From a virus, in IMG/VR virus record IMGVR_UViG_3300025889_000765, positions 1 to 27,517 of that record: a stretch of DNA of 27,517 nt; one strand, written 5' to 3'. The translations under genes and the position numbers were made by a program. This document shows positions 1-26,548 of this stretch, one piece after another (position 1 is the first letter of the stretch; each line of letters starts with the position of its first letter). Under the pieces are notes generated by a model that was given only the letters and a program-made list of their open reading frames with translations, did not search any database and was not told the DNA's origin.

Positions 1-3000
1 CTAAGCCCTTACTCTTATCAAGCATCAATCCAACAGGTTGACCAGCAGCAGTTACAGCATTAATGCCATTGTAATCCTGATACAGAGTGCTCAGATCATT
101 CACATCATACCAAGTGCCATACTGACCAGTGTAGAAGATAGAGGACACAATCACATCATCGCTAACAGGCTTAGTGTTTACTGTCCAACCTCTTGATTCG
201 AGTCTGTGCTTCGCGTATGTGCCTCCGACTCCTGGGGTTTGCATGTTTGTGGAGTTTAGGGTGATGATACCGCTAACTGTATTAGCATTGTTGATACTTA
301 AGAGAACATTGTCGATGCTTTGGGTGTTTAGTTTGGTATTTTCGAAAGTTCTATCAAAGTCTGTAGTTCCTGAAGTATTATCGAAGCAACCAGAAGGAAA
401 ACTCTCTAAGCTGGTGCATTGACCCCAAGTAACGGCCATGTTAGTCGCAGACCTGAAGTCTAGTTGAGGGAAACTAGATAAGTTGCTACAGGTAGCCCAA
501 GTCAGCGCAAAGTTAGTTCCTTTACTTGTATCAATCTGCGGAAAACTAGAAAGACTAACGCAGCCTCTCCAGGCTTCTGCGAAATGCGTTACATTAGCAG
601 TATTAATTGAGGGGAAACTAGAAAGACTACCACAGCTTTGCCAAGTTTGACCTAAGTAAGTTACTAAACCGGTATCAATTAAAGGAAAACTTGAAAGACT
701 ATTGCAATAAAGCCAAGTTGCATTAAAGCTAGTAGCTTGACTTGTATCTATTTGAGGAAAATCTAAAAGATTTCTACAGTAAGCCCAAGTTCCTCCAAAA
801 GAGTATGCTTGGCTTGTATCAATTAGGGGAAAACTAGTGAGAGCATTACATTCTCTCCAAGTCGCAGGAAGGCTAGTTGCTTGACCTGTATCAATCAGAG
901 GAAAGCTAGAAAGGTTGGAGCAGAAACCCCAAGTGCTATCAAAATTAGTCACTTGGCTTGTGTCAATTAATGGGAAAGAAACAAGGTTTTGGCAGTTATA
1001 CCAGGAAGTCCCCAAGCTAGTTGCTTGGCTAGTATCAATCAGAGGAAACTCAGTGATCCAGGTTGCTTGTCTCCAGTAACCATAAAAATTAGTAACATCA
1101 CCATAAGCACTTGCTCCAATTGCACTTGCACCACCTTCTCTGAAGTATTCGAATGCAGTGTCAATCTCAGACTGATCTAGTGCTACGTTTCTTACCAACA
1201 TGCCTAGAAGGTCATCATTGAATGAGTAGTTTACTGATAAACTGTTTGTTCCGATTGAGAAAGTTCCTGATGGTAGAAGAACACCGTAAGCTGCTGTTCC
1301 TCTTACATCTGATATAACTGCTGTTCCACTTACCTGACCTGGGACTTCTACGAGGAGTCTATCATCTACCTTGTCAAAGTCTAGGTAGTAGTATCCATCT
1401 GCTTCTGCTAATACAGGTCTTGCTGTGCTTGTTGGTTGTTTTGCGTGGAAGCCTGCTACTTCTCTGAGTGAGATATTGTCGAATGTGTTTGGGTAAGGAT
1501 CTTCTGTTGTGTATTCTGGGAGTCCTGTTACTCCTGATTTAGAGGCTAGGTAAGATTCTACTAAATCTACTTCTGCTCCGTTTAACTCTCGATCAACAAA
1601 AATTACTCCATACCATTCAGATGGATGAGGTGATGCGATATAAAGAGGATTTTGCGCGATAAGCAAGTTATTAGCAGAATTGGTTCCTGTATTAGTTCCT
1701 CCTATTGGTGACTCAACAATCCCATCCTTTCGGAGATAGGAATTTGCCGCATCAAATTTTTGAGTCCAGACATTAATGGAAGAACCGTCAGGCTCTGTGT
1801 AGGTAAGTCCTGCACCTGCGAACATTGACATATCACTTGTATTTTTAACACTATAAGTTTGAATATTACTAGTAGTTGACCAGTGAATTGCCGCTACAGT
1901 CGTAGAATCTGCCCATAAAGCTCCGCAAGCAAAAGTAAAAGGTTGCGCTATTGGGGTTGCAAAATCAGAAGTCTGCATACAGTCATCCACCCCATCAAAG
2001 TCCAGGTAGTAAAGACCATTAGACTCTTGCAGAACAGGTCTTGCGGTGCTTGTTGTTTGGGTGGCGTGGTTTCCAGGGAGTTCTTTGAGGGAGACGTTGT
2101 CGATGGTGCCGCTAAATGATCGCGCCTGGAAATACAATCTTGTATTTCCCACCGCCTTCATTCTTGCGGTTTTTCGCCCGTTGCCGTCTATTGTCTGCGT
2201 GGATGCCCCGTTCCCGGCAAAAACGACTACAGTTCCGCTCACTGTAGTTTGATCCCAAGATATTTCGTAGGTTTTCCCGGCGACCAAGCAGATTTGATCG
2301 AGGTTTGAAAATCCTGTTGTTACACATGATGCAACGCCGCCGGAAATCGTCCAGCCCGGCCCTTTGTTCCAGGCGGTATCGGTGTCAAACGTCCCGTTTG
2401 TGACCTGCTCACTTCCCAACTGCAAGCCCTTAGACTTGTCGAGTATCAACCCAACAGGCTGTCCCGCACCTGTGACTGGAATTGTTCCATTTGAATCCTC
2501 GAACAAGGTATCAAAATCAGAAGGATCATACCAAGCACCTTCCTCACCACTTGCGAATAGTGATGATATGGGGGCAGAGGGCATTGGTGATGGGTTGTGT
2601 AGAGAAATGTATAGAGAAGAAGTTTCAGGAATGAAGTGACGTTCGAGAGCTATTTCTTGAGAAGCGAAGAACTGGTCTCTAAAACGTTTCCAATAACCGC
2701 CATACACTCCTAGCATTTCCCCGCCAGCAAGAGTTAATCCTGAAGCGTTGAAGTGAACTTTTCCTAAGTCTCCAAAGTAATCATACTCATCGACATTGAA
2801 TAGGGTTACATCATAATCAGGATCTTCCGTAAGCTCTTGCTGCTGTTCACGAACTATGTTAACATATTGGTAGTTTGCGTTCGTATTTAGTAGGTAATGA
2901 GTGTTTGCAATATAGAATGGGAAGTCTTCTGCTTGATTGGCAAACTGCCCATACATTATGTTTTTTAGGTCTGCTTGGAGATTATCATAAAAGAGCCTAA

Positions 3001-4010: not shown

Positions 4011-7000
4011 TTAGCCTATCCAGAAACCAAATTCAATATTTTCTAGCGCAGATTCACCTTCCACAGGAACAGCTTCTATTGCTTCAGCGACTTCCTCGGA
4101 AGGAGTGTAAGAACCTTCAAGCAAGTCTTGAGCATCAAGATCCTTAATTTCTAAGAATATCAGTTGACCATTAGGATTATAATCACCTTCTCCGCCTCCT
4201 CCTGGTCCACCTTGAGCATTAAAACCTTGATAGTTAGTTAAGTCTCTATAACTGTCTCTACCCCCTCCGACAAGTCCGTGAATAGACGATGATTTATTAT
4301 AATCTCTACTCAAGAACCCATCAAGCCTAGCTTTCCCAGCAAATCTTGCGAATGTCTTTATTATAGTTCTTATATCAGGTTCAGGTAGATCCATTCGTAT
4401 GGGATCACAATATTTATTAAACAGAGGTCCTATTAAATCTCCTGCTAATTCTAGTCTGGTATAATCCCAAAGGGTTTCGTCTCGGAGAGATATTTCATCC
4501 AACAGAATGAATTGATTTAAGTTTTCCCTCTTAGGTATCATGAAAACTTCAATTAAATAATGCTGATTTGGATTATGTAAAGCACTTGTTTGATTAGAGC
4601 CACAACCGATAAAGGTGTCAAACTCAAAAGAAATTTCTGAAAAATATTTCTCTTCAAACAAGGCAACCGAGTCATTAAAGTTGCTTAACTCTGACTCTGG
4701 GTCGTTGTTGGTTCTGAGGCATCTAAATACCTTCGCACCTAAGTCATCAGCTTGAGTGTAGCCTTGAGTATCAAAAGAACTTCTATGTGCCAAGTCTCTT
4801 AGAATCTTATCGACCGTAATATTATTCTTATTTAGCTTTACCCAATTACCGCTAACGTCATAGTGATAGCTGTCATTGCCTTCTAGCTCTGTGTGAATCC
4901 ATACCCCTACTTCTGCATTCGTTAATGCTGTTCCATCATTTAAAGAAGCTAAACCCTTGAGACTAACTTTAAATTTGTGGTTTGGACTAAGGAATGAATC
5001 TTGTCTGAAGGTCCCTAGTTGATCTGAGAAGTCGCTGCCGTTTACATGGAATCTTAGTCTAGGAAGTCCATTAATACTTCTTAGCTTTACAAAAACATTC
5101 TCACGGATATAGGAATCTTCATCAAAGTTAACTAAATCGTATATTATGAATTCATTCTCAGGAGATGATCCCGAAGTATGAATCATATCCAGACCATCTA
5201 TCAACGTAGAGTTAATTACTTCATATGTGCCTGTGTAATTGTCTCTACTCGTTCTCGCTACTAAAGCATTTGAGGCACCGGCAGCATAACTCCCGTTCTC
5301 CAGGGAGGGTCCAAACGTAGCTGATCTTGTATTTAGCTTGATTACGTTTGAGCTATTTCTTGTATAGACTGCTTCACCGTTAAGGCCTCTATCTTGGAAA
5401 TCGCTATTCTTCAGGATACTGCCGAAGCAGTGGCTTAGGATATCTGTAGGATTTTGTGAGTAAACTTGAGTCGTTAATGGGTGAAAGTTAAACGTGCTAA
5501 CATACTCTTGATATAGTTGGTGAATTTTTCTACCAAAAGAATAGTTATAATACCCTTCAATAGAGTTTAGGACAGTGTCAGAACAGGATAATTTTTTATT
5601 AGCTTCTGATCCTGATACGTTGAACCAATAAGCCTTTTGAGCATAATCTGATCTATTAAGCAATGTAGTTGCTAGTCTATAGGCTTGAGCTTCTAATTTC
5701 TTCTGCTCAATTTTATAGATGACATACATGAATGGGTCTAGCTGCTCGCGGTCTTGGTATAAAATTGACGCATCAGACTCAAGGCCATATTGAGCTATAC
5801 CTCTCGTTGGTATTGTGTTAGCTAGATAATACCCATAGAATAAGCCATCTCCATTTGGTATACATTGCTTATAGATATCAGGAATACCTGAAAGTAAGCC
5901 GTCACACGTAGCTGAGGTTGATACGAATTCTAAGGATGATGGAATTAGTCCCCTAGTTATTAGGCTCGAATCCTGAGAGCTAGTAAGTCCAGGAATACGG
6001 CTAGATCTGAAGATTGGTGGATTAAAACCTGACCTATCAAAATATCCCACTAAATTTAGAGCGTTCTTATAGTTTCTTCTTCTAGTTGATTTCCTTATCG
6101 TATTAATAATATTTGTTGTGTTAAAAGTAACACCATGATTAGGGTTAGGGACGGTCCCTGTTTGTGGGTCTGGGAGTTCTGGTGCGCTAGAAACTGCATA
6201 TAGTGAGGCTAGTCTCTGTCTTCCCAAACCACTAAACTCTACCAATCCTTCTAAAATATTAATACCAACAGTTCTCAGGTTATTAGTTTGGGCTGGGTAG
6301 TCAGTTGGATCTCTTGAGATCTCTGTGAAGAGATTGCCTGTGGCTAGATAATCACTTGTATCTTCTAAGTATGTGCTAATTATTGCTATTGCGTGAGCAG
6401 GCGAAAACTCCTGAGCGGTTCTAGCTGCCATTAATATGGCATACTTAGAGTCCGAGGTAAATTGAATTTTATTAAAATCAAACTCTCCCGCTAAGAAATC
6501 TAGTCTGTAGTGTGAGGATTTACCGTTCCATAAGGAAAGATATTCGCTCTTATTCTTATCCGGTAAACTTACGACACGATCCCAATTAGGAGCTAATTCA
6601 AGAGATGATGTAAACAATAGCCAAGAGTTATCAATTGCTAAAGTATTTTGATTATCAATAGAGTTAGCTTTTACATAGGCTACTAAAGTTGCCGCAAATT
6701 CAGGATTGACGCCAAAACAAACTAGGAGATCTTCGAGAGCATCCAAGAACGGCTTTGTAATATCAGATGTGACGTAATAAGGAATTTCCTCAAATGGAGG
6801 GATAGGATGAACTTTACCTCTGTAATTAAATACGAAATTATCTGAGTCTTGTGGGAATGGCTGATTGGCTAGTCTAAAGTTGTTTGGAAATTTCCTGTAA
6901 AGATTTAGTAGGATCTTATCAACAGCCGCTCGAATATTATTATCGAAGTTTTTTGTATCGTAATTATCAATCCCTAAACTGTCTGCTACCTCTCTCGTGA

Positions 7001-8168
7001 ATGTAAAAAAGTTCTCGAAATATCTAGACTCAGTCGCCAGAGCATACATGACCAAGAATGGAAGGTAAGATTCCCAGAGTTCTTGAATATAAGAGTCTAG
7101 GTCTATTCCTCCTGGGCCAAATAAATTGTCTAAAGCAAGCTGAATACTTTGCTTAGTTCCTGTTCGTTTGTATACAGAAACAGCGTTAGCTAACTGAAGT
7201 CTCCACTTATTTTTATCATAGCCTAGCAACTTCCAACCAATCAGGTTTGCGAGTTCAGGGAGATACTCATCTGGGCAGTCTTGGAGATCGTATAGAGTTT
7301 TAAGCTGATTAACTTCATCCTGTCTATCAGCAATGGAGAAGGAAAAAGCTTTTATAAGTCGCCAGAAAGCTCCGTTACTTACTAGGTTCTCTGGGGCTTC
7401 TGCTGTGGTTGAGTAAAGCTCGAAGCTATCGGCAACGTAGGAATCCAGCTTGTTTAGATATGTTTCTGAGTAAAGGATCTCATTTATTGTTTTTAGTTTA
7501 TCAAGCTGTTGAGTTCCGCTTACATATTCACCATCGCCACGCTTAAAATCTGTTGGTATATAAGGAAATCTATTCTTCCAAACATACTCTGTTATTGCAT
7601 TTACTCCTTCAACAATCCCTAGATGCTTGTCTTCATATAGATAGTCACACAAGTAATCAATGACGATGGAGTAAGGTTGAATCCCTGCTATCTCGCTCGT
7701 TATCGCTAAAAGATAAAACCAACCTAGAGAGTTGATATAAGAATCTACGCTGTCTTGATCTGAACGGCTATTAATCAGTGTAGGGATTAAATCGGTTTCT
7801 AAGTATGTTCTAAATGCTGCTACTGAAGTAAAATCTCGGAAAGACTTGTTTAGTGGGTATAATACTTCTCTCTCAAACTTAAATTTGTCAATATCAGTTA
7901 TACGATTTTTCTTGTTGAAAAAAGATTCTATTCCCTCAAACGTAGCTAAATTAGAAAATGTAGTCCCAGTAGGTAAGCTTAATATAGAAGGTAGATTTTC
8001 TGCTAGTTCTAAGTGAGATTTGATGACCGTATCCAAGACATCGACTTTTTCTCCAAAGGCATTCTTATCCTCCAAGATGTAATATCTTGGGATAAGCGAC
8101 TCCATTACATCAGAGAAGTTTCTCTTGAAATGGCGTTGTTTCTTAGAAGAAAATCTACTATCTACCAT
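4011..8168 (-). CDS. Baseplate wedge protein, gp7 / P2 tail protein I-like, 1385 aa
   Basis: The gene starts at ATG 8168, which shares one base with the stop of the gp6-like gene (TGATG), with GAGGG just upstream. Residues about 290-390 carry the feature that identifies it: a DCPDEYLPELANLIGW segment followed by KRTGTKQSIQLALDNLFG. This matches the core of P2 gpI-type tail proteins, where a helical segment precedes a 'rHkGT..a...al..lG' motif. The rest is much larger than P2 gpI (about 180 aa) and closer in size to T4 gp7 (about 1030 aa). It includes a FSPAHAIAI motif near residue 590, beta-rich middle domains and a glycine-rich stretch near residues 1305-1325. Its place directly after the gpJ/gp6 gene is where P2 I and T4 gp7 lie. 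Inferred role: baseplate wedge scaffold linking the ring to the fibres. The family call is good; the extra domains are not recognised. Confidence 0.75.
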   Translation of the reverse strand: MVDSRFSSKKQRHFKRNFSDVMESLIPRYYILEDKNAFGEKVDVLDTVIKSHLELAENLPSILSLPTGTTFSNLATFEGIESFFNKKNRITDIDKFKFEREVLYPLNKSFRDFTSVAAFRTYLETDLIPTLINSRSDQDSVDSYINSLGWFYLLAITSEIAGIQPYSIVIDYLCDYLYEDKHLGIVEGVNAITEYVWKNRFPYIPTDFKRGDGEYVSGTQQLDKLKTINEILYSETYLNKLDSYVADSFELYSTTAEAPENLVSNGAFWRLIKAFSFSIADRQDEVNQLKTLYDLQDCPDEYLPELANLIGWKLLGYDKNKWRLQLANAVSVYKRTGTKQSIQLALDNLFGPGGIDLDSYIQELWESYLPFLVMYALATESRYFENFFTFTREVADSLGIDNYDTKNFDNNIRAAVDKILLNLYRKFPNNFRLANQPFPQDSDNFVFNYRGKVHPIPPFEEIPYYVTSDITKPFLDALEDLLVCFGVNPEFAATLVAYVKANSIDNQNTLAIDNSWLLFTSSLELAPNWDRVVSLPDKNKSEYLSLWNGKSSHYRLDFLAGEFDFNKIQFTSDSKYAILMAARTAQEFSPAHAIAIISTYLEDTSDYLATGNLFTEISRDPTDYPAQTNNLRTVGINILEGLVEFSGLGRQRLASLYAVSSAPELPDPQTGTVPNPNHGVTFNTTNIINTIRKSTRRRNYKNALNLVGYFDRSGFNPPIFRSSRIPGLTSSQDSSLITRGLIPSSLEFVSTSATCDGLLSGIPDIYKQCIPNGDGLFYGYYLANTIPTRGIAQYGLESDASILYQDREQLDPFMYVIYKIEQKKLEAQAYRLATTLLNRSDYAQKAYWFNVSGSEANKKLSCSDTVLNSIEGYYNYSFGRKIHQLYQEYVSTFNFHPLTTQVYSQNPTDILSHCFGSILKNSDFQDRGLNGEAVYTRNSSNVIKLNTRSATFGPSLENGSYAAGASNALVARTSRDNYTGTYEVINSTLIDGLDMIHTSGSSPENEFIIYDLVNFDEDSYIRENVFVKLRSINGLPRLRFHVNGSDFSDQLGTFRQDSFLSPNHKFKVSLKGLASLNDGTALTNAEVGVWIHTELEGNDSYHYDVSGNWVKLNKNNITVDKILRDLAHRSSFDTQGYTQADDLGAKVFRCLRTNNDPESELSNFNDSVALFEEKYFSEISFEFDTFIGCGSNQTSALHNPNQHYLIEVFMIPKRENLNQFILLDEISLRDETLWDYTRLELAGDLIGPLFNKYCDPIRMDLPEPDIRTIIKTFARFAGKARLDGFLSRDYNKSSSIHGLVGGGRDSYRDLTNYQGFNAQGGPGGGGEGDYNPNGQLIFLEIKDLDAQDLLEGSYTPSEEVAEAIEAVPVEGESALENIEFGFWIG

Positions 8169-10205: not shown

Positions 10206-13200
10206 TTAGTTTTGTTGAATTTCTTTAAATTTGTTAAAGAATCTAGAAGCAAGTTCCTTATACCCATTAATTGTATAGTGAATATTGGGAGGAGGAATAG
10301 TTCCTACAGCATCACCTTCTAAATCTACAAGATGAACATTTAAATCAGGATTCTTAGCTACAAGAGCTTGCTGCTCCCTCACTATTCCTATGAAATATGC
10401 TCCAGCATCTGTGCTTTGATAATCAAAGACCTCAGGGACAGGTTGTTTCTGCATCTTTGAAGGTAAATGTCCGACTAAGAATGGGAAATCAGGCATATCG
10501 GGATTTCCTAAAGCCGCCTTCACTGAAGATTGAATTGTTGGATAAAAAATACTAGAGAAGTAATATCCCCACTCTCTTGCTCTTTGTTCTGGTTTTTCAA
10601 ACCAATAATTTTGAGAGTTTATTGGATCATCTAGATCCTTTACATACGATCCTTCCGCTTCTCCCTGGAGGAGTAGTAAAGTAACATTTATATCAGCGCC
10701 TTCAGTATTGATTTGTTGCAATTGTTCGATAGCTGCTGACATGTCGTTGAGAAAGGTAAACATTAAACCAGATCCTTGGACCTCCGCCGCGAAGTTAGTT
10801 GCGGGGTCTAGGTCAGTCCAAGATAGAGTTGCGAAATCTCCAGGAAGGCCACTAACCATAGATGCTGCATTGATTGCATTCTTTACAAAATAAACACTTT
10901 CTCCTTTTTGATAATCACTAACTAGCTTACCAAGATCTGAGACCATGCAGTAGTGCCTGTTAGCAAGCGCAGGATTATTTACAAACCTATTTGCGGGTTG
11001 TGTAAGGAAATATCTACTAGAGTTATATCCACCGAATCTAGGATCAGGTGTAGGTGTATTGTATCCTAAGGGAGCAAAATTGTAATTAACTAGGTCTAAG
11101 CTCTTCCATTCTCCTGCGGTGGCGTCTACGGCGATGGGCATCCAAATCTTAGTAGTTTCTTGCGGTAATTTAAATTCAGCGGAAACTAAGTTTTCAGTTC
11201 CTGAAAGATCAGTGGCAAATTCTCCATCAGTGAAGCTTCCATCCATGTTACTTTGACCAAGAGCTAAGAACAGGTTAATTACTGGTTTCTTGTATAGCTC
11301 TTTGAACAACACACTTTGAATCTTGTAGTTTTGTTTTGCAGCGTCTTGAGATACAGCTTTGTTGTAGAACTTTATACTTCCTAGATATCCGTTTAAGCCA
11401 CTTCTCTGTCCTCCAAACTCTCCACCCATGAAGTTTCCGTTGAGAGCATTGCCGTCAGTGTAGCCCCCTCCAACAATCCAAGGAGTAAAGAATGGATAGG
11501 TCTTTGGTCCATTCTTGATGGACTTCGGAGCTAAGTTACCGACAGTGTCCTCCGAATACTCAAAACTATTTTCTTTCTTGAATGAAGGAATTTTAATTGT
11601 TCTGCCTCTCTCGGTTCCAAACACATTAGATACAGCAGAAGACTCCAAAAGCTCTCCATCTAGGTAGACATTAACTGTGTCATCCTCATAGCTCACTGCC
11701 ATAGTTAGCTGGCAGTATTCTGCCTTGAGTGTTTGTAAGCTTTTTCCTGTGGCCGTCGTTTTGGTATGTGGGATATACATACCAAACCACTTATTCTGAG
11801 TCAGACACCCCGGTCTCATCATGAAAGTGGTTGAGCTAGAATCATAAGAGATCGTAGGAGCTATCACTAAACCATAACCATTAGCAGGGTCTTGCTCCGT
11901 AAAGTTATTAGACGGATTTAGTCCTCTAGTCCACCTCTTATCAATAGTAAACCCTACAATCATACCCTTGACATAGTCGGTAGATTCTGTGTAGGGCACA
12001 AAATTATAATCTTCTTCACGGGTTCTATTTTGGCTAATTCCTGTATTTTCGTTTGCTAGAATTAGTCGATACAGCGCGGAAGAACTATTATCGCTCCAAC
12101 CTAACGTTTGGTCTATGTCGGGAATGTAAGCCCAAGTGTCTAAAGAGAAGCCAGACTTTCTATAAGTCCAGTCTTGGAATTCTCTCGTATCTGGTAATTT
12201 GAGGTAGCTTCCAAGGGCAGACGGATTATTCCCTGAGTTAACAGTTATTCCTTTCAAGAACGGTGCTGCTAATCCGAAGCCATCGTAAATCTCTTGAGAT
12301 GTCTTAGCAACCAACTGAGCATTATTATAATCATCGGGAGTAGCGGCATTATTCATTCTAAACTCTAACGACGAAGGTAATACTACGTTAGAGTTTAGGA
12401 AGTTATACATGGCAAATAAACCATCAGTGCTAACAACTTCGTCCATGTTGATAGTTGGAGGTCTTGCCTCTGATACATCAGTTGTATCACTAATTATTGC
12501 ATCAAAGCCCATAGCTGGTATGTATAACTCGTCTATGGTCATGCTTGCGCTCTTAGGACTAACCTTAACGAATTTAGGTTCTAGAGGCATTACTATCCCA
12601 GATACACTTTCAGGGTTAATAACCAGTTGCTGTTGATCTGTTAAGGCTAGGGATACGTTGAATCCTTGAAGATAAGAGAAGTCGTTTACAGGGACGGTTC
12701 CAGGCGCGAATAGGACAGAACCCCCAAAAATATTTGGGGCTTTTACAGCTATCTCTATTTGCTTTTTTCTCTTATTAATCTTGATTTCATGTTGGGCAGA
12801 TTCGCTAACTAAGCTCTGCTTCAAGTTAGTTATGATTGCCTCAGACTCTCCTAAACTTTCTAGTTCAGTGATTTGTTTAGATATATCAATCACTCTCTTA
12901 TCTCTTTGTCCAATCAGAGTCTGTAAGAAGCCGTCCTTATCGTATTGTGGTTGTATTAATTCGCTATCATCAATAATATTGATATCGAATATACTGTTAA
13001 TCCACTTATTAAAGTTTCTACTTGAGATCTGCTCACCTTTACCTCCAAGATTTGGGTCAAACTCAAACTTCCACTTTTCGGACGCATCTACCAACTGCTG
13101 TCTATCTCTAAGCTCGACAAGAACCGGTATTAACCCGTCGTCAGTTTGTGAGTCATAGTAGAGGCCATCAATTGATAAGACGAACTGACCTTCTCGACTT

Positions 13201-13928
13201 TTCGGTGGACCATAGACTAAACGAATAAGTTCTTCACCTTCGTCTTCAGCATCAGCAATCTCAAAGCTTGTATTTGGGAATAATTCGCTATACTTTGCAT
13301 TAATCTTAGGCTCTCGTTCAGGATCTAACACTCTTTGAAGTAACTCTTCATTAATAGCGTTTTCTAAGGTTTGAACTTTTTCCTTGAGAGCGACTGCTTC
13401 TTCAATACTCTTTACTTGTCTTGCATAGTTAATATCTCTATTTAAAGTTCTCTCTGCCGAGTTTTGGAATGTTGGATTATCAGTAGAATCCATCGCATCC
13501 TTAATTTGGTTCAAGCAGTCTTTGATTCCTCTCAACGATGATCCCGCATTTTTAACATTTGCGTAGATATCCCCAGCTACGTCAACTAGTGCTGCTAGTT
13601 GAGCTATCCCCGCTACAAGTGATGGATCTAAATTTAGTAGGGAATTATCAGATCTTAAAGAAATAGTTCCTAACTCAGTGATATATTGCTCTATACCAAA
13701 CTTTTCAGCTAAGTAATTAAAGCCTTCTGTAATTCTTTCTTGAATTTTGGCCTTATATTCTCCAATCATTCTTTGTATCGTTAGTAAGATTGATCCTGGG
13801 AGAAGTGCTAGTAGGTCTACTGAGAGGTTCAGGACGCAGGAGGGAAGTCCTAACGAAGCAACGCCTGCTCCATATAAACCAGAGCCTTGGGCTAACAATC
13901 CACCAAAAAGTCTAATATCAAAGCTCAT
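10206..13928 (-). CDS. Large baseplate/virion protein with LamG-like middle and C-terminal SASA esterase, 1240 aa
   Basis: ATG 13928 overlaps the spike-gene stop by 4 nt, and GGAG lies 8 nt upstream. Residues 1-150 are helical and glycine/alanine-rich. About 160-200 and 330-400 look like coiled coil. About 560-870 resemble a LamG/concanavalin-type domain (GFSLDTWAYIPD, LYRLILANENTG, VNVYLDGELLESS, GYLGSIKFYN). About 885-1235 form a SASA/SGNH esterase: LALGQSNMDG (Ser893), LLLQGEAEG (Glu1090) and NIHYTINGY (His1217). It lies between spike and gp25 genes, which are adjacent in P2-like modules. The LamG part recalls the VrlC-type virion proteins of T4-like cyanophages, a recollection I could not check. 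Inferred role: a baseplate-mounted enzyme that trims acyl groups from host surface sugars. The usual DxxH aspartate is not three residues before the catalytic histidine. Confidence 0.75.
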   Translation of the reverse strand: MSFDIRLFGGLLAQGSGLYGAGVASLGLPSCVLNLSVDLLALLPGSILLTIQRMIGEYKAKIQERITEGFNYLAEKFGIEQYITELGTISLRSDNSLLNLDPSLVAGIAQLAALVDVAGDIYANVKNAGSSLRGIKDCLNQIKDAMDSTDNPTFQNSAERTLNRDINYARQVKSIEEAVALKEKVQTLENAINEELLQRVLDPEREPKINAKYSELFPNTSFEIADAEDEGEELIRLVYGPPKSREGQFVLSIDGLYYDSQTDDGLIPVLVELRDRQQLVDASEKWKFEFDPNLGGKGEQISSRNFNKWINSIFDINIIDDSELIQPQYDKDGFLQTLIGQRDKRVIDISKQITELESLGESEAIITNLKQSLVSESAQHEIKINKRKKQIEIAVKAPNIFGGSVLFAPGTVPVNDFSYLQGFNVSLALTDQQQLVINPESVSGIVMPLEPKFVKVSPKSASMTIDELYIPAMGFDAIISDTTDVSEARPPTINMDEVVSTDGLFAMYNFLNSNVVLPSSLEFRMNNAATPDDYNNAQLVAKTSQEIYDGFGLAAPFLKGITVNSGNNPSALGSYLKLPDTREFQDWTYRKSGFSLDTWAYIPDIDQTLGWSDNSSSALYRLILANENTGISQNRTREEDYNFVPYTESTDYVKGMIVGFTIDKRWTRGLNPSNNFTEQDPANGYGLVIAPTISYDSSSTTFMMRPGCLTQNKWFGMYIPHTKTTATGKSLQTLKAEYCQLTMAVSYEDDTVNVYLDGELLESSAVSNVFGTERGRTIKIPSFKKENSFEYSEDTVGNLAPKSIKNGPKTYPFFTPWIVGGGYTDGNALNGNFMGGEFGGQRSGLNGYLGSIKFYNKAVSQDAAKQNYKIQSVLFKELYKKPVINLFLALGQSNMDGSFTDGEFATDLSGTENLVSAEFKLPQETTKIWMPIAVDATAGEWKSLDLVNYNFAPLGYNTPTPDPRFGGYNSSRYFLTQPANRFVNNPALANRHYCMVSDLGKLVSDYQKGESVYFVKNAINAASMVSGLPGDFATLSWTDLDPATNFAAEVQGSGLMFTFLNDMSAAIEQLQQINTEGADINVTLLLLQGEAEGSYVKDLDDPINSQNYWFEKPEQRAREWGYYFSSIFYPTIQSSVKAALGNPDMPDFPFLVGHLPSKMQKQPVPEVFDYQSTDAGAYFIGIVREQQALVAKNPDLNVHLVDLEGDAVGTIPPPNIHYTINGYKELASRFFNKFKEIQQN

Positions 13929-15256
13929 GAGGGTAACTCCACTGATGCGTCATAATCTGACAGCTCAAAGTAGGGATGAACTGCCTTTCTAGCCCGTGTT
14001 GGAGGAGCAACAGGAGCTAAATCTATTCTTTCTCCATTAATCAAAACACCAGCCCCTAGTTCGATATGTCCATAAGGAGTAGCTATAGGAACATCTACGG
14101 CTGTTCTTTCATAAAAAGTAAAATCGTAATTTTGTTCTGTTATTTCATCAACAAATGAAGGTCTAAATTCTGAGTCTCCTTCTTCTAACAAAGCTAAAAT
14201 ATTAGAAGACAACTTAACTGTAGTTCCGGCTGCTATATTTACAGAGGCTTTAGCATGTAAGTTTAAATCGCTTTCTGACTTAACGTTTATAGATCCGCCA
14301 TGAATGTATATATTATCACTTGGCGCTCGTATAATTATTTTACCATCTGAGGAAATTTGCACTAAACCTTCCTCACCAAGAGCCTTAATCATTACTCGAC
14401 TTCTGTGAGTTAGTGGCGACCAAGCAGCTTGACCCAACGTCAATTGCATAAACTTATGCCCATCTCCTGCTGTGATATAGATATCCCTAACATCGCTAGA
14501 AACTCTAATATTACCATAAGGCTCTGTTACGGAAATAGGTCCTGCCGGAAGGACGGCTGGTTCTAAGTTCACCATACCTACTGATTCGTTTCTGATATTG
14601 ATGTCTTGTCCATCCTTGACTAACATGCGGATAGAAGACTTTCTAGAAGTTACGCTTACCTTGCCTGCGGTGTTTATTGCGATCTCTCTAGGTGCTATCT
14701 TAGGCCCTGCTGTGTATCCATCCTTATACCCAGAACCGATGGTAATACCGTCTCCTTCTTCATTCTGTAAATAAATACCGTAGCAGTTAGGACTATCGTT
14801 AAGTAGAAGTTTTTTTCTGTCTCTAGAGATTAGATCAATACCTGTGGAGAACCCGTTGCTCTCATCATAAGCATGGTTAAACCTCATGGTATTCCCCTTA
14901 CGATCCATCATGACTAATCTGGAGGGTGTGGCTTGAGAGTAAAGTCCTGGTGGGATGTGTCCTTGTTCTACTCGATCTTTGATTATATTTTTACCAGTCT
15001 CTACTGTTGATTCTATATCTCTTCTGTGGATAGTGCTCAGATAATAATATTCTGAATCCACCCTTACAAACAAGATCATAGAGTCTACTTCTGGTAGAGC
15101 AAAAAATCCTGCCTTCCCTTTTGGACTAAAGTCTCCCCCAAAAGGAGATGTATAATAGACATCTACTATACCTAGATTGTTACCAGCATCTACTGCTAGT
15201 GAGCCTCCTTCGGCAAGATCCGAGGTATTTACAACTTGTCCTTTATACATTCTCAT
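13925..15256 (-). CDS. Baseplate central spike, gp5/VgrG/gpV-like, 443 aa
   Basis: Residues about 1-85 look like an OB-fold (MYKGQVVNTSDLAEGG, GIVDVYYTSPFGGDFSP, MILFVRVDSEYYYLSTIHR), the N-terminal domain that seats gp5/VgrG spikes on the hub. About residues 300-350 have alternating polar/aliphatic strands (GKIIIRAPSDNIYIHGG, LNLHAKASVNIAAG), the usual pattern of a triple-stranded beta-helix needle. I see no lysozyme domain like that in T4 gp5. The C-terminus ends in a proline-rich stretch (LAPVAPPTRARKAVHPYF). The gene sits between hub and baseplate genes with an 11-nt gap upstream and an ATGA overlap downstream. Role: puncturing the outer membrane during contraction. Confidence 0.8.
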   Translation of the reverse strand: MRMYKGQVVNTSDLAEGGSLAVDAGNNLGIVDVYYTSPFGGDFSPKGKAGFFALPEVDSMILFVRVDSEYYYLSTIHRRDIESTVETGKNIIKDRVEQGHIPPGLYSQATPSRLVMMDRKGNTMRFNHAYDESNGFSTGIDLISRDRKKLLLNDSPNCYGIYLQNEEGDGITIGSGYKDGYTAGPKIAPREIAINTAGKVSVTSRKSSIRMLVKDGQDINIRNESVGMVNLEPAVLPAGPISVTEPYGNIRVSSDVRDIYITAGDGHKFMQLTLGQAAWSPLTHRSRVMIKALGEEGLVQISSDGKIIIRAPSDNIYIHGGSINVKSESDLNLHAKASVNIAAGTTVKLSSNILALLEEGDSEFRPSFVDEITEQNYDFTFYERTAVDVPIATPYGHIELGAGVLINGERIDLAPVAPPTRARKAVHPYFELSDYDASVELPS

Positions 15257-19314: not shown

Positions 19315-22140
19315 TTATCTCCTAGCTTGATCTAAAATATCTGGTCTCTTTGTTCTCTTGTCTGAGAGCTTATTGACTCCATCGACTAGATCTCCTAGTT
19401 TTTGTAATCTTTGTTGTGCTAGAATATTAGCAGTATCATCGTTATCAGTCTTAGAGATTAAGATTTGGGATCTAATTGTCTGCTGACTTAATTGAGCTAA
19501 GAAACTAGCTTGTTTATTTAAAATGTCTTGGCTTCTAGACTCTATGCTTTTATTTTGGTCTTTAGTCTTTTCATCAATACGTTTTACACTTTTCTTGGTT
19601 CCCTCACTAGATGTAAGAATCAAAGGTAAGAATGACAGTAATCCAATTACGATTCCGGGCCAACCGCCAAGAAGTCCTAAAAGACCACCTGCCATACTTT
19701 TTGTCTTTCCGACCGCGTTTTGAACCGCCATCCCTTGTAGAACTCTAAGTATATTTCCGATGGTAAAGTGTGTCTTCATCAGTTCAACAGGTATTTTCAA
19801 CAGAGGCATTAGGACTCGAATAGCTTGAGAAAAAGCAATAATCATTGCTCCACCAGCAAGAAACTTATTGACAGAACCAAAAAGACCTAAAAATATGAGC
19901 CAGGATTGAGAAATTAAAGCTAAAGGCTCAAGCAACATTTGACCTAAAGCGTTAATAGATTGTATAGCGTCCTGTATTCTAGCCGTTTCTGGGTCTCTAA
20001 CGTCTACCCCTTGAAGGGCCTGGGAAACCATTCTCATGTTTGCTAAATTTGCCAAACCACCAAAAGGCTCTAAAGCTCCGCCCAATGCAGATTCTGCCGT
20101 TCTGGTGTCTCCAAATCTATTTAAATATTCTTCTCCTGTAGCTACTGCCTTCTCAAACGCTGATATGAGAGCTTCAGTTTTCTGTTCTCCGCTAAATTCA
20201 GTTCCAGCTAAAACTCTAGTTTCCTCTTCAATACCAAGTAATCCAGCAGGAGCATATCCTTGTAATCCCCCAGAAAATAGTGGTCCTGCTGCTTGTTGCA
20301 GCACTCCTGCGGGTAGTAATCTCTGAACTCTACTTTCGATTTCTTTGAATGCTTGAATATTTGCTACTCCACCTGCTCCAAGCATAGTAGCTTTGATGCT
20401 TTCTGCAAACTGCGATATGCTCTTCATTAAGGCCGTAGTAGAAGTGTTATAAGTTTTTGCTGAGTCAGCTACTGATTGAGTAAATGTTTCTGTCCCAGCT
20501 ATGCTCAAATCGAGGACGCCTCTAAGAGACTGAATAGATGTAGCTAATCCTGCTGTATCCTCTCCTAGTAAGTCAGATCTTGCTAGTTGTTCTCCTACAA
20601 CAGTATAATTATCTTCTAATCCTGTCTGTAAAGCTATAGTAGAAGTCTTTAGTTCAGTTATGGCAGGTATATTATTTAGTAAGCTATTGTTTAATTGGTT
20701 AATTGGTGTATCAAAACCAAAACTAAGAGCCGTGTTTTGGAATTGAGCAGTTTCTCCCATTACTTTAGCTAATAGCTGTTTTAATTGTGCAAATAGAGCT
20801 ACAAGAACGTTTCTATCTGCAAAGAACGGTCTTCCTGGTGGGTTGCCTCCTCCTCCACCGCCTCCACCATTGCCTCCGCCTCCACCATTGCCTCCGCCTC
20901 CACCATTGCCTCCGCCTCCACCATTGCCTCCGCCTCCACCGCCTCCACCACCTCCTGATTGTTGCTGTTGTTGCTGGTTTCGTTTCAGTGCTTCCTCGGC
21001 AGCTTTCATTTTTTTCTCAGCGGCTTTCTGTGCTGCCTCCGCTGCTTTCAGTGCTGCCTCCGCAGTTTTCTGTGCTGCCTCCGCTGCTTTCTGTATTTTT
21101 TTAGCTACTTTAAGATCTTCTTCGGCTTGTTTAAGTTTGGCGGCTTCTGGTGACTGTTTCAGTGCGTCCCCTGAAGTTCCTTGCGCCACTTTTTGGAGGA
21201 CGGCTTGCTCTGCGGCCTTAACAGCCTCTTCCGCCTTAACAACATCTTTCTTCTTCTCTGAACTAAAGTCTTTAGCATAGTCAAGGTTGTCGCGGGAATC
21301 TGTGACCGCGTCCCGGGCCTTCATTACACTCTCTTTGGCTTTTTCTTTCTTTTCATAAAGATCTTCTGGTGGGAGGAAAGGGCCTAATTGTTGCTGATAC
21401 TGCTGAGAGTCTGCGACTTGATCATTAGCTGTCTGCAAGGTTTGTGAATTATTGTCAGCAGGTGTAGTTGGAGGAGTTTGAGGAGTTGGAGGAGTTGGAG
21501 GAGTTGGAGGACTTCCGGCTTGATCATTTGCTATCTGCAAAGTTTCATTGTTTGACGTAATTTTAGAACTCTCAGATTCTCCTGCTCTAGGAACTATCGT
21601 TAAAGTATTGTTAAGTTCTTTAAAAAGTTTAGTTAATTCATCTTCTAATAACTTTTGAGTTTTTTTAGCTTCTTTAGGGGATTTATTAAACTCAGACTTA
21701 AATAAAGTTTTAAATTCTTGTATAATTCTATTTGGGACAACAAAATCTTTATTTTCACTACTTTGAGCAGATATTTTTTTCTCGAGATCTCTCTGGTCTT
21801 TCTGAAAAGCTTTAGATCCGATAGTGTCGGATGGAGCCTCAAAAGCTTTTTCTAGTGCTTTTTGTGCAAGACCAAGTATCTCACTCAGGTCAGAGGAATC
21901 CATAGTTGCTTGGCCCTCTGACCCTGTAGTTGAGGGGGTTACGACTTGATCATTAGCTGTCTTCAAGGTTTCTTGATTTTCTGCGGGAGTAGAGGGAGTA
22001 GAGGGAGTAGAGGGAGTAGAGGGAGTAGAGGGAGTAGAGGGAGTATTTAATCCATTAGTAGCTGCCTTTAACGTTTCGTTATTGGAGTCTATAGAAGACT
22101 TTGAGCCTTCTGAAGGATCATTATTAGGATCGTCTGCCAT
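19315..22140 (-). CDS. Tail tape measure protein, 941 aa
   Basis: I chose ATG 22140 over the TTG one codon upstream. ATG 22140 has AGGAAG 6 nt before it and makes a TGATG join with the preceding stop. The N-terminal 200 residues are low-complexity: six TPS units, TPP repeats, and four copies of a short ETLxxANDQ-like motif. Then come an alanine/lysine/glutamate coiled coil (about 275-395), a glycine/asparagine run (about 400-440), an alpha-helical domain (about 450-720) and hydrophobic segments from about 720 to 830 (WLIFLGLFGSVNKFLAGG, GGLLGLLGGWPGIVIGLL). Membrane-like segments near the C-terminus, great length and position before the baseplate genes are typical of tape measures. It sets tail length and probably enters the host envelope on ejection. 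A tape-measure role is well supported; the low-complexity front is unusual. Confidence 0.85.
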   Translation of the reverse strand: MADDPNNDPSEGSKSSIDSNNETLKAATNGLNTPSTPSTPSTPSTPSTPSTPAENQETLKTANDQVVTPSTTGSEGQATMDSSDLSEILGLAQKALEKAFEAPSDTIGSKAFQKDQRDLEKKISAQSSENKDFVVPNRIIQEFKTLFKSEFNKSPKEAKKTQKLLEDELTKLFKELNNTLTIVPRAGESESSKITSNNETLQIANDQAGSPPTPPTPPTPQTPPTTPADNNSQTLQTANDQVADSQQYQQQLGPFLPPEDLYEKKEKAKESVMKARDAVTDSRDNLDYAKDFSSEKKKDVVKAEEAVKAAEQAVLQKVAQGTSGDALKQSPEAAKLKQAEEDLKVAKKIQKAAEAAQKTAEAALKAAEAAQKAAEKKMKAAEEALKRNQQQQQQSGGGGGGGGGGNGGGGGNGGGGGNGGGGGNGGGGGGGGNPPGRPFFADRNVLVALFAQLKQLLAKVMGETAQFQNTALSFGFDTPINQLNNSLLNNIPAITELKTSTIALQTGLEDNYTVVGEQLARSDLLGEDTAGLATSIQSLRGVLDLSIAGTETFTQSVADSAKTYNTSTTALMKSISQFAESIKATMLGAGGVANIQAFKEIESRVQRLLPAGVLQQAAGPLFSGGLQGYAPAGLLGIEEETRVLAGTEFSGEQKTEALISAFEKAVATGEEYLNRFGDTRTAESALGGALEPFGGLANLANMRMVSQALQGVDVRDPETARIQDAIQSINALGQMLLEPLALISQSWLIFLGLFGSVNKFLAGGAMIIAFSQAIRVLMPLLKIPVELMKTHFTIGNILRVLQGMAVQNAVGKTKSMAGGLLGLLGGWPGIVIGLLSFLPLILTSSEGTKKSVKRIDEKTKDQNKSIESRSQDILNKQASFLAQLSQQTIRSQILISKTDNDDTANILAQQRLQKLGDLVDGVNKLSDKRTKRPDILDQARR
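20851..20958 (-). repeat. 18-bp tandem repeat coding for a Gly/Asn linker
   Basis: The plus-strand string CCATTG recurs at 20867, 20885, 20903 and 20921, exactly 18 bp apart, inside runs of CCTCCG/CCTCCA. On the coding strand each unit gives Asn plus five Gly. This forms a flexible linker between the coiled coil and the main tape-measure domain. Such repeats are prone to replication slippage. Confidence 0.9.
21991..22044 (-). repeat. 9-bp tandem repeat (six TPS codon triplets) in the tape measure
   Basis: The plus-strand unit AGAGGGAGT occurs six times in a row without mismatch and codes for Thr-Pro-Ser triplets near residues 33-50. A looser TPP series lies at about 21470-21515. Perfect identity suggests recent expansion by slippage. 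Confidence 0.9.
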
Positions 22141-22634
22141 CAATCTTCCTCAATAAAATCAAGCTTTAAGTTTATTATACTTTGTATATTTTTAACTTTA
22201 AATGTCTTAAAATTTTCTTTTCCAAAAAGACTAAAGTTTATTTCTTCTTTGTTATCTTTAGCCTTCTTTTTAAAGTAATCTGAAACAGCATCTTCTAACT
22301 GATAAGATTTACCTTGAAGAACTTTATAGTCAGAAGCTTTCCTTCTTTTATATATTCTAGATAACGTAATTTGAGACGAAACTTGAGTTAAGTCTACTAC
22401 TAGACAAGTAACTAGTAAATTTCTTCTGTTAGAAATGTATAATCCTGTTTCTGTTTTATTTGTAGCAATAACGTAAGCAGTATAGTATCTTCCTAGATAC
22501 ATAAAAGCAAACAACGCACCTACTTTGAGGTAAGTTCTGGGTATGATTGAGCTGACTCTATTTACTTTACCAAGTCTGATAGAGCTGTTGTTCAGTTCTA
22601 GCTGAATGGAAATATTTTTCAGATAAGACTTCAT
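22140..22634 (-). CDS. Unknown protein upstream of the tape measure, 164 aa
   Basis: I do not recognise the family. The protein is basic and mostly strand-like: an N-terminal half with PRTYLKVGALFAFMYLG and YTAYVIATNKTETGLYISN, then a lysine-rich middle (RIYKRRKASDYKVLQG) and an acidic C-terminus (LKLDFIEED). Its stop overlaps the tape-measure ATG by one base, so it is the first gene of the continuous tail operon. ATG 22634 has no clear Shine-Dalgarno site and is followed by a second possible signal-free stretch. Tail operons often carry an assembly factor at this position, but nothing in the sequence proves that role. A small virion protein is equally possible. Confidence 0.6.
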   Translation of the reverse strand: MKSYLKNISIQLELNNSSIRLGKVNRVSSIIPRTYLKVGALFAFMYLGRYYTAYVIATNKTETGLYISNRRNLLVTCLVVDLTQVSSQITLSRIYKRRKASDYKVLQGKSYQLEDAVSDYFKKKAKDNKEEINFSLFGKENFKTFKVKNIQSIINLKLDFIEED

Positions 22635-23765: not shown

Positions 23766-24749
23766 ATGATTTCTCCAAGTCTAATTATAGAATTTTTGAA
23801 GAAAAACTTCGAGCCTAATATGAAGTATGTCTCGGGCGGGCGCGAGGCCACAGTGAACTCATTGTTCGCCACAGACTACAAGATGCACATGTCTGTCAAC
23901 ACAGAGACTGGTCTGTGGCAATGCTTCAAATCTGGCAGGCGAGGTAACTTCGTCCAACTAGTTGCAGCAACTCAGCAGACGACATTTGATCGTGCTAGAT
24001 CCTACGTCCTATTCGAAAGCATCAAGCGTGGTGATGGCGAAGAGCGACCACAGATTGATCCGGGTCAGAAGATCTTCTTCACTCAGAAGGAGTTCAAGGA
24101 AGAGTTCGAGTGCAATGTGTTGCACGAGTTTGTAGAGTTAGATAAAGCATGGAAGCTGATTGGAGATTTCGTATTTGACCGCAGGCTAGAGATTACAGCG
24201 TTCGATGAGTCTCGCCCTTGGTTTGTTAGCTTCACCGGCAAGTTCGCTGGTCGAGTCTTCATTCCCTACTATTCAGATGATGATAGCATCTTCTTCTTCC
24301 AGGCTCGCTCTATCCTCCCGTCAGGCCACCCGAAGTATCTCAATTACAGCGGCCTGAAAGCCTCTGAGGTGCTTTATCCGTTCGATTGGGGTCAGGAGAG
24401 GGTCGTGGTCACCGAAGGCCCTGTGGATGCCATCACGCTCCAGCAATGCGGCATCAACGCGACCTGTCTAATGGGCTCGCACGTATCCAAGATCCAAGCA
24501 CAGCAGCTACGAGCTTTTGGTGGTGCAGTCATCCTATCAATGGACAATGATGAGGTCGGTAAGTTAGCCATGCTCAAGAACTTTGAATACCTCAAGAAGC
24601 AGGGTATTCCGTCTAACAGAATCTCGTTCCTCCCGTGCCCACGCGGGAAGGACTGGAATGAGTATTACCAAAAAGAAAGTGCGGAAGCCGTGAAGACCTC
24701 CGCACTTTCAAGTCTAAGTGAGTTATACTATCGTCTTTATACTAGTTGA
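23766..24749 (+). CDS. DNA primase (TOPRIM, DnaG-type), 327 aa
   Basis: The catalytic core is clear: a GRVFIPYYSDDDSIFFFQAR segment (about 162-181) like the basic part of DnaG-type primases, then TOPRIM with VVVTEGPVDAI (Glu217) and ILSMDNDEVGK (Asp260, Asp262), which bind the catalytic magnesium. A C-terminal PCPRGKDWNEY motif is also usual. Residues about 30-65 resemble a DnaG zinc-ribbon region (NTETGLWQCFKSGRRGNFVQL) but keep only one of the expected cysteines. AAGGA lies 5-10 nt before the ATG, inside the nuclease gene. The protein makes RNA primers for lagging-strand synthesis, presumably with a separate helicase. Its last 13 bases overlap the convergent structural gene, and its 3' end contains that gene's terminator. 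Confidence 0.88.
   Translation: MISPSLIIEFLKKNFEPNMKYVSGGREATVNSLFATDYKMHMSVNTETGLWQCFKSGRRGNFVQLVAATQQTTFDRARSYVLFESIKRGDGEERPQIDPGQKIFFTQKEFKEEFECNVLHEFVELDKAWKLIGDFVFDRRLEITAFDESRPWFVSFTGKFAGRVFIPYYSDDDSIFFFQARSILPSGHPKYLNYSGLKASEVLYPFDWGQERVVVTEGPVDAITLQQCGINATCLMGSHVSKIQAQQLRAFGGAVILSMDNDEVGKLAMLKNFEYLKKQGIPSNRISFLPCPRGKDWNEYYQKESAEAVKTSALSSLSELYYRLYTS
23784..23789 (-). promoter_or_regulatory. Candidate -10 element for the nuclease gene, inside the primase gene
   Basis: On the minus strand TCTATAAT lies about 20 nt before the nuclease ATG. The same octamer precedes the primase twice on the plus strand. A clear -35 is not visible. It lies within the first eight codons of the primase. Confidence 0.35.
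24670..24709 (-). terminator. Rho-independent terminator for the minus-strand structural gene, within primase coding sequence
   Basis: Arms GAAAGTGCGGA (24675-24685) and TCCGCACTTTC (24699-24709) form a perfect 11-bp stem with a 13-nt loop. On the minus strand the stem is followed by TTTTT (24674-24670). It is 28 nt downstream of the stop at 24737. There is no T tract on the plus strand, so it should act on minus-strand transcripts only. Confidence 0.8.
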
Positions 24750-25660
24750 ATATACATCAGAGGAGCTACTATGCGCTCCGTGAGCAAGTCGTATTTGAGT
24801 GTCAGGGCGTAAACACCTCGCATGTTGCCGAGGTTTCCTGCGGTCATTTCTGCGTGAGTTCTAAGTTGATCTGTGTCCCATGATAAAACAATCGTGTTGT
24901 CTGCGGTAAGTCGAATACTCCCTGATGTATCTGTGTAACCTGAAACCTCAACTCGGGAGGGTAGGTTATGGTCATCGTTAAGTTTTTCTATTTTGATCAT
25001 TGGATCAATGATCACAGCGTCATTGATCAGGTTTTTTATTACATCTGATAAATTGCCGTTTTCTATGGTGAAAGTAGTTGTAATCTTAACGTCTTGCTTA
25101 GAGCCTAGTGGGATCTTTTTAGTAATAAGTTGATTATTTGTCTTGATTAAGAGCGGCTCAGTTACCGAAATAAAGGTATTATCGTATAGATTAAATTGGT
25201 TAATTATCGTGGTGTAATTCCCGTTACCGAGTCTATCCACGGTCCAAACATCTAGATAAGATCCAACAGTAGATGCAGTAGTAGGTATGGCCGCTGTCCA
25301 ATCTTCTGAGTATCCTGTAGTCGCTGCATCAAGAACAACCACATACTCCCCAGTGGTTACTCGATAAACACCAGAAGCGTTGACGGTTGGAGAGTAAAGT
25401 GATGGATCTAAATAAGCCGCTCCACCACTTGGGGCGAAGTAAGCTTTAGCTAAACCAGAAACTGCACTCGTAACAAGACCATCAGCATCTAATAGAGATG
25501 ATGGATATGTGTTGGTATTCCTGGAGAATACTATGACATCCTTGATATCTGCGGGGTCATAATATTCTCCATTGTTAATGAAGTATACTTTAATAGCTAC
25601 TTTATCTGTAGGGCTAGGTCTGTTACCTCTATCGACTAGACTGTATCCGTTCAATTTCAT
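24737..25660 (-). CDS. Unknown, probably virion structural protein, 307 aa
   Basis: No family is recognised with confidence. The sequence is rich in beta-strand patterns and in Thr, Asn, Gly and Tyr, with almost no Cys, as in many phage structural proteins. Examples are GVYRVTTGEYVVVLDAATTG, GSYLDVWTVDRLGNGNYTT and RGVYALTLKYDLL. The start overlaps the end of the frameshifted gp26-like reading frame by 32 nt. It is followed by a strong terminator, so it is the last gene of a two-gene unit with the gp26-like gene. It is convergent with the primase gene, overlapping by 13 bp. A neck, fibre or tail-decorating protein is possible. Confidence 0.6.
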   Translation of the reverse strand: MKLNGYSLVDRGNRPSPTDKVAIKVYFINNGEYYDPADIKDVIVFSRNTNTYPSSLLDADGLVTSAVSGLAKAYFAPSGGAAYLDPSLYSPTVNASGVYRVTTGEYVVVLDAATTGYSEDWTAAIPTTASTVGSYLDVWTVDRLGNGNYTTIINQFNLYDNTFISVTEPLLIKTNNQLITKKIPLGSKQDVKITTTFTIENGNLSDVIKNLINDAVIIDPMIKIEKLNDDHNLPSRVEVSGYTDTSGSIRLTADNTIVLSWDTDQLRTHAEMTAGNLGNMRGVYALTLKYDLLTERIVAPLMYIQLV

Positions 25661-26548
25661 CGTTTTCTCTTTTCCTTTCGTCTGTGAATAATTTAAGGAA
25701 AATGACTCGATCAGCTCTAGTCATCCCTCTTACATCGGCATAAGTAAAGCCACAATGCTTTACTAGTATATATGCTTCATATAAGATGATATCTAAGTTA
25801 AAGTAACTTATTATCTCATCGTAAAAAAATCTGGGCTTGTAGTGAGATCATTTACCTCCTCAAACCCGCAATGTTCGCATTGGAACAAAAAGTTTGTATT
25901 TAGTCCTATTTCGCTACTGCCAAGAGCATTTACAATAGCATGAATATCTTTTCTTGGTAGTTTGTCCATTACTTCAATCTTAACTTTAGTGCTTGAGTTT
26001 CCTGCAATGGATACTACAAATCTCCAAAGATTTTGATAAAGTTTTTCTGTTGGCTGCTCTAGCTCTGTTGCTGTTGCTCGACGGACTACAACCTTCTGCT
26101 TAATTACTGGAAGTTCTATTTCTCTAGTTTTTTCGAGAGGTTCGTCTGGATAGTTACAAGAGAATGTGTTTAATACATCTACCGTAAAAGAATTTTTCTC
26201 GTTGCAAGAATTGCAGAAAATATCAACATCATAATTAGATCCTACAGATAAATTCCTAATTTGTATAATTAAGAAAATTTTATCTTGTTGAATTAGACTT
26301 CTAGGATCAATATTCTCTTCTAAGCACCTAGAAATTAGAAGATTAATTGCTTGCGACTTATCTTTTAGAGCTAAAAGAGCTTTCTCATCGTCGAAAGTCA
26401 TTGCTCTTAAATGAACATACTCACTCTCTAGACCATAAATCTTACCGAGGGAGGGTAATCTAACCTCGGCTCTCTCTACCTCAGGAATACTTCCAAGTAT
26501 TTGGCTTACAATATCATCTAGATTGGTTTCTTGCGGATTATTAGTCAT
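25629..26548 (-). CDS. Predicted -1 frameshift fusion (gp26-like + 64-residue C-terminal extension), about 306 aa
   Basis: After Phe242 a -1 slip on T TTT TTT (25829-25823) would continue YDEIISYFNLDIILYEAYIL and so on to the stop at 25629. The -1 frame is open from 25847 to 25632. It contains no ATG, GTG or TTG before the methionine of VRGMTRADRV, which would remove the helical core. So this piece is unlikely to be translated on its own. The extension looks like a compact helical protein with a basic/acidic tail (FTDERKRENDEIERIQSSR), in the place where T4 gene 51 follows gene 26. Its end overlaps the next gene by 32 nt. The alternative is one missing T in a homopolymer, which would make this a single ordinary gene. 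Confidence 0.6.
25785..25829 (-). promoter_or_regulatory. Candidate -1 frameshift signal: slippery heptamer plus downstream stem-loop
   Basis: Seven T on the minus strand (25829-25823) read as TTT TTT in frame. Downstream, TAAGTTA (25810-25804) pairs perfectly with TAACTTA (25800-25794) around a 3-nt loop. GATGA (25820-25816) can pair with TCATC (25789-25785) as an outer stem. The spacer is 2 nt to the outer stem or 12 nt to the inner stem. AGGAGG lies 25 nt upstream of the heptamer, further than the usual stimulatory distance of about 10 nt. Confidence 0.5.
25811..26548 (-). CDS. Baseplate hub assembly protein, T4 gp26-like, 245 aa (zero-frame product)
   Basis: The layout matches the T4-type baseplate assembly family: an N-terminal helix, VRLPSLGKIYG and VHLRAMTFDDEKAL (about 29-58), INLLISRCLEENIDPRSL, then DKIFLIIQIRNLSVGSNY. 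Two CxxC pairs, Cys112/Cys115 and Cys224/Cys227, suggest one zinc site linking the two halves. ATG 26548 has AAAGGTG upstream. The final codons are PDFFTMR then stop; the FF codons plus the preceding T form a T TTT TTT heptamer. Family members act as catalysts of hub assembly rather than virion parts. The name gp26 is from memory of sequence style and the gene neighbourhood, so it is moderately sure. Confidence 0.7.
   Translation of the reverse strand: MTNNPQETNLDDIVSQILGSIPEVERAEVRLPSLGKIYGLESEYVHLRAMTFDDEKALLALKDKSQAINLLISRCLEENIDPRSLIQQDKIFLIIQIRNLSVGSNYDVDIFCNSCNEKNSFTVDVLNTFSCNYPDEPLEKTREIELPVIKQKVVVRRATATELEQPTEKLYQNLWRFVVSIAGNSSTKVKIEVMDKLPRKDIHAIVNALGSSEIGLNTNFLFQCEHCGFEEVNDLTTSPDFFTMR

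Follow-up and report, generated by a model that had tools for sequence, protein, structure and literature searches.

Introduction

Tail assembly chaperones of the lambda G/GT and P2 E/E' type come from two overlapping open reading frames (ORFs), with a frameshift late in the first giving a short major and a long minor product. Chaperones of the lambda G/GT type are typically encoded between the tail tube and tape measure genes, bind the tape measure, are required for assembly of the tail and do not remain in the virion. Signals for programmed -1 frameshifting typically pair an in-phase X XXY YYZ heptamer with an RNA structure 5-9 nucleotides downstream that stimulates slippage. The lambda slippery site is a run of G. 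In T4, gp26 and gp51 are described as chaperones of hub assembly, gp51 being absent from the particle (T4 tail review, PMC3004832). In two more recent papers, Vladimirov, Gautam and Davidson (2022, Virology 566:9-15) are cited for short and fused long chaperone genes, not relying on frameshifting, in some T4-like phages (PRFect, PMC10885494) and for -1 signals of the poly-T type in the chaperone genes of T4-like phages (phage Adele, PMC12846349). The second paper also argues from many genomes for a -1 site, a conserved GTTTTT, followed by an extension in the chaperone locus of Vandenendeviridae and Andersonviridae. Here we examine a 27.5-kb virus contig (IMG/VR record IMGVR_UViG_3300025889_000765, positions 1 to 27,517; hereafter the window), on whose minus strand a gp26-like gene continues in the -1 frame beyond a slippery heptamer. 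From sequence comparisons we propose, with a probability of about 0.93, that this locus is a single tail assembly chaperone gene, a member of the gp26/gp51 family (PF12322), whose expression involves programmed -1 ribosomal frameshifting.

Reading frames and slip site

The short form (25811..26548, minus strand) is a gp26-like protein of 245 amino acids, of the tail assembly chaperone (TAC) class TAC-N, with a zinc-binding CxxC...CxxC domain. It matches PF12322 T4_baseplate (E=3.7e-17; 63.2 bits, above the curated cut-off of 24.5) and the phrog_150 baseplate hub profile (E=7.5e-22). On the minus strand the gene ends with the codons GAT TTT TTT ACG ATG AGA TAA, the zero-frame stop TAA lying at 25811..25813. 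Within them the T TTT TTT heptamer is in phase, read as TTT TTT, at 25823..25829 (minus strand; seven A's on the plus strand). A preliminary description of this DNA had reported the heptamer in this phase, which is borne out, and had placed it four codons before the stop, where we count three sense codons.

Reading in the -1 frame gives FF and 64 further residues (25829-25632) before a TAG at 25631-25629. The extension itself (64 codons and TAG; 25629..25823, minus strand) opens with TAC, whose T is the final base of the heptamer (25823) read a second time. The long form would have 306 amino acids, namely the first 242 residues of the short form and the extension. The extension frame has a single start codon, an ATG at codon 35, within the conserved core. 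The 64-codon continuation of the gp26-like ORF and the lack of a start codon ahead of the core had both been claimed in the preliminary description and agree with our reading, as does its hairpin, treated below.

Conservation of the site among relatives

Relatives found in phage records by tblastn were distant (25-29% identity, plus one partial match at 37%), and the 66-residue extension used as a tblastn query matched no phage record. A scan of viral contigs with the window protein as single sequence gave no matches, and an initial mixed alignment proved too divergent for use as a scan query. The closest relative, a 47%-identical viral-contig copy reached through the baseplate gene gp6, has the same slip site (GAT TTT TTT AC) and an extension 48% identical to that of the window. 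Scanning with a two-sequence alignment retrieved 35 viral-contig loci, all with an in-phase heptamer and a -1 extension, and a larger alignment retrieved 261 relatives, 80 of which were kept (62 distinct, 31-47% identity). The slip site and the -1 extension, of 54-64 amino acids, are present in all 80, with TTTTTTT or TTTTTTC in phase 16-19 nucleotides upstream of the stop. TTTTTTC replaces the seven T's in 29 of the 62 distinct relatives, and a few, such as L041 and L045, have eight T's. One relative (L191; QCKN01000003.1) lies in a 130-kb contig from a Prochlorococcus single-cell assembly, and apparently the same contig is in IMG/VR.

The site also extends to jumbo T4-like phages: all eight records considered (RAS14, XacN1, Atu_ph07, PA5oct, BF, Munch, XbC2 and RaK2) have an in-phase T TTT TTT or T TTT TTC near the gene end. 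Their -1 extensions are longer than that of the window (70-80 amino acids) and are either annotated as a separate hypothetical protein or absent from the record.

The heptamer is more conserved than its amino acids require. T TTT TTY was observed at the site in 38 of 38 distinct -1 genes, where 17.3 would be expected from amino acids and per-gene codon use; the genes were treated as independent though they are related, which overstates the probability attached to this difference. T TTT is fixed before the second Phe codon, itself free (TTY). In phase elsewhere in these genes, T TTT TTY occurs at none of 9430 positions, and the three other Phe-Phe pairs are not slippery. The extension has a median ratio of nonsynonymous to synonymous substitution rates (dN/dS) of 0.35 and is under purifying selection. 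About a dozen relatives have a -1 frame that becomes open right at the heptamer, which leaves frameshifting as the sole way into it. The site is kept without exception in more than 60 distinct relatives, and one gene almost certainly gives both a short and a long chaperone, where T4 obtains the same two proteins from two genes.

The codon pattern also bears on transcriptional slippage, in which mixed mRNAs made on the T run would yield both proteins. Seven T's, or the eight of L041 and L045, are a possible polymerase slippage site, but the relatives with TTTTTTC have only six T's before the C. Six T's are short for transcriptional slippage. Moreover, a phase constraint on T TTT TTY that leaves the second Phe codon free fits tandem tRNA slippage, and we consider the transcriptional route improbable. 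Still less probable is that the extension is a separate gene, started at the codon-35 ATG or reached by reinitiation after the short-form stop. This in-frame ATG does recur among relatives, and in some GenBank records the extension appears as a hypothetical protein of its own. Yet the ATG encodes the Met in 'MTRxER', a conserved motif inside the core, and is preceded by a conserved EAYILVK stretch, the extensions of L011 and L064 lack any start codon, in many cases the -1 frame is closed immediately upstream of the heptamer, and a separate gene would give no reason for a fixed T TTT TTY. Neither a proper second start nor a one-frame fusion was found in the clade of the window; in-frame fusion was seen only in the two-gene Straboviridae.

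Relationship to T4 gp26 and gp51

The extensions of the clade are homologous to the C-terminus of gp51 from Straboviridae (hhalign E=3.8e-7, score 36.1), 40 column shuffles scoring at most 14.8 and a reversed control also far lower. The phrog_634 'baseplate hub assembly catalyst' profile was matched by 17 of 28 clade extensions; the window's own extension matched phrog_4845 and not phrog_634. T4 gp26 and gp51 both belong to PF12322 and, judging by their alignment with each other (hhalign E=8.9e-20), are paralogues. On phrog_150, gp51 reaches the end of the profile and gp26 falls short of it. Given this coverage and their common family, gp51 (TAC-NC) resembles a long form fused in frame, a gp26-like domain joined to the counterpart of the extension, and gp26 (TAC-N) resembles a short form; the window would share this short/long design along with PF12322, phrog_150 and the gp51 C-terminus. 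The two T4 genes are divergent and lie on opposite strands; no frameshift can therefore join them there.

Copy number follows the same division. T4 and four other Straboviridae, five of five, have two PF12322 genes for the two forms, whereas the window would use one gene and a -1 frameshift. Each of 11 recoded phage records (eight -1 and three +1) has a single PF12322 gene, as do ten contigs or assemblies of the window clade, although contigs may be partial; Mel-JY01 and immuto have none above the cut-off. The preliminary description had suggested the gp26/gp51 pair as the counterpart of the lambda-type chaperones, a suggestion these comparisons support, except that the extension corresponds to the C-terminal domain of gp51 and not to the whole gp51 gene.

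T4 gp26 (L008) ends with KEFFELL, its codons TTC TTT G lying near the Phe-Phe position of recoding. They are not slippery and may possibly be a remnant of a recoding site.

Predicted RNA and protein structures

A stem-loop predicted at 25785..25820 (minus strand), with a 7-bp inner and a 5-bp outer stem, is a possible stimulator. It is the minimum-energy fold (-23.9 kcal/mol and z -3.5 over 103 nucleotides; z -3.0 over 60 nucleotides). Across the clade, the 60 nucleotides after the heptamer have a mean z of -1.17, against -0.29 in control windows of the same genes. A clade stem 8 nucleotides downstream shows a covariation of 0.252 versus 0.177 when shuffled (none of 500 shuffles as high), 64% of cells being paired. 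A downstream stimulator is likely present but variable. An AGGAGG also lies at 25855-25860 (minus strand), 25 nucleotides upstream of the heptamer, with a third-frame mini-ORF beginning at an ATG after it. We rejected it as a frameshift stimulator, its spacing being too long and its presence not general among relatives, though L034 has GGAGGAG.

The AlphaFold2 (AF2) model of the short form has a predicted local distance difference test score (pLDDT) of 89. In BFVD it matched other phage baseplate hub proteins, and Foldseek returned nothing from the PDB at E<=0.001. Upon re-alignment of 593 chains, the two best were tail assembly chaperones, YqbN (3klu, Z 6.4) and then that of HK97 (2ob9, Z 6.2), a result supportive of a chaperone fold. 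Both alignments span short-form residues about 6-106; the two proteins match the N-terminal 100 or so residues of the predicted short form and are without its zinc domain. The extension model is all-helical (pLDDT 87) and gave no useful match in the PDB.

Several of our results weigh against programmed frameshifting of a chaperone gene in the window. The exact hairpin of the window is absent from relatives, many of which have a different one 8 nucleotides after the heptamer, and RNAalifold found no common structure on relatives. The structural Z scores of 6.2-6.4 are below 8 and modest. Several genes stand between the chaperone gene and a weakly identified tape measure candidate (942 amino acids; 19315..22143, minus strand; phrog_339 tail length tape measure, E=7.7e-4), and no tail tube gene was seen in the window. 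Finally, a scan for another assembly of the exact window site found none. This absence, at a site that is a homopolymer, is what an assembly error would have in its favor, one continuous frame appearing broken by a miscounted seven-T run, but such an error is hardly credible when the same phase and frame change recur in the 62 distinct relatives and eight jumbo-phage records, across many independent assemblies, and when nearly half of these relatives have no seven-base run at all.

A sister clade with +1 extensions

In SP-15, LIS04, GXN1, RM378, Mel-JY01, immuto and many contigs, the extension lies in the +1 frame and is homologous to that of the -1 genes (E=5.7e-9). A Phe-Phe pair is present in 24 of 30 +1 genes. 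Its second codon is TTT in all 24 (16.2 expected), the first being free (17 TTT, 7 TTC). The next base is C or T in 23 of the 24, as re-pairing of tRNA-Phe one base forward would predict; LIS04 has TTT A at the pair. A few +1 genes are without the pair and have CCC A in its place. The exact position of +1 slippage is putative. The gene of L083, considered as a -1 gene, was rejected: its heptamer is a chance one, its actual arrangement is +1, and its Phe-Phe pair lies far upstream of the stop.

We are inclined to view these genes as one chaperone family with three interchangeable routes to a long form: -1 frameshifting in the window clade and jumbo T4-like phages, +1 in the sister clade, and two genes in Straboviridae. 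The -1 and +1 routes would mostly use the same Phe-Phe codons, the direction of recoding having switched within one orthologous gene; this seems somewhat more probable than the contrary. We found no report of +1 recoding in the gp26/gp51 family, which is weak evidence of its absence from the literature.

In SP-15, LIS04 and Flavobacterium immuto of the sister clade, the gene is flanked by those for the tail tube and the tape measure. In RM378 (L110 2852-3358), the tail tube gene is on the opposite strand, directly after the chaperone gene.

Gene neighbourhood in the window

Downstream of the chaperone locus, a gene for a 307-residue protein (24737..25660, minus strand) has a start overlapping the last ~30 nucleotides of the extension, and relatives have a similar gene in the downstream position. 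The tape measure candidate, presumed to be the client of the chaperone, has PSTPSTPST repeats and long Gly linkers. Further along the minus strand, a 443-residue protein (13925-15256) has a sub-threshold DUF2345 match and a 1385-residue protein (4011-8168) matches Tail_P2_I. Between them, a tail-region protein of 1240 amino acids (10206-13928) contains 'FLALGQSNMDGSF', a stretch similar by eye to the GQSNM motif known from SGNH/sialate esterases; a Pfam search of this protein gave no match at 0.01. An open ORF of 1330 amino acids (2-3991, minus strand) runs off the contig end.

Comparison with known systems and implications

The window locus resembles lambda G/GT and P2 E/E' in a short major and a long minor product, as predicted here from sequence. 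As in the lambda type, two ORFs overlap and the putative frameshift lies near the end of the first, an arrangement common to all clade relatives. The tube-tape measure location is shared by sister clades. No sequence match to the lambda and P2 proteins was found, and none was sought. Unlike them, the window family is longer, has the zinc-binding CxxC...CxxC domain and would slip on U6U or U6C. The phage Adele locus, from different phage families, is likened to ours by arrangement. Overall, the comparisons support what the preliminary description had proposed, a -1 frameshift giving short and long forms of a gp26/gp51 protein linked to lambda-type chaperones.

By this mechanism, the majority of ribosomes would read TTT TTT in frame and stop three codons later, releasing the 245-residue short form, and a minority would slip one base back on T TTT TTT, probably with the help of the stem-loop, to make the 306-residue long form. 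We infer slippage, its rate and the chaperone role from conservation and homology. By analogy with lambda G/GT, the abundant short form would form a coat on the tape measure protein, and the extra domain of the rare long forms would serve to recruit subunits of the tail tube. With many short forms coating and few long forms recruiting the tube, the short:long ratio would therefore matter.

The statement of the preliminary description that no established frameshift was known to link T4-like gp26 and gp51 genes is out of date in view of the papers crediting Vladimirov et al. (2022) (PMC10885494, PMC12846349). According to these, the single-gene -1 mode in T4-like phages may already be partly reported. 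Relative to earlier reports, what is new is possibly this clade, its scale and the +1 switch.

Our finding supports regarding T4 gp51, the hub 'assembly catalyst', as a tail assembly chaperone in its long form. What seems to be a single-gene alternative to the T4 gp26/gp51 pair is present in hundreds of viral contigs and in many jumbo phages, in phage records the gene being labelled 'baseplate hub' or hypothetical and the extension split off or omitted. The family would offer a natural system for studying how the direction of frameshifting can change in evolution.
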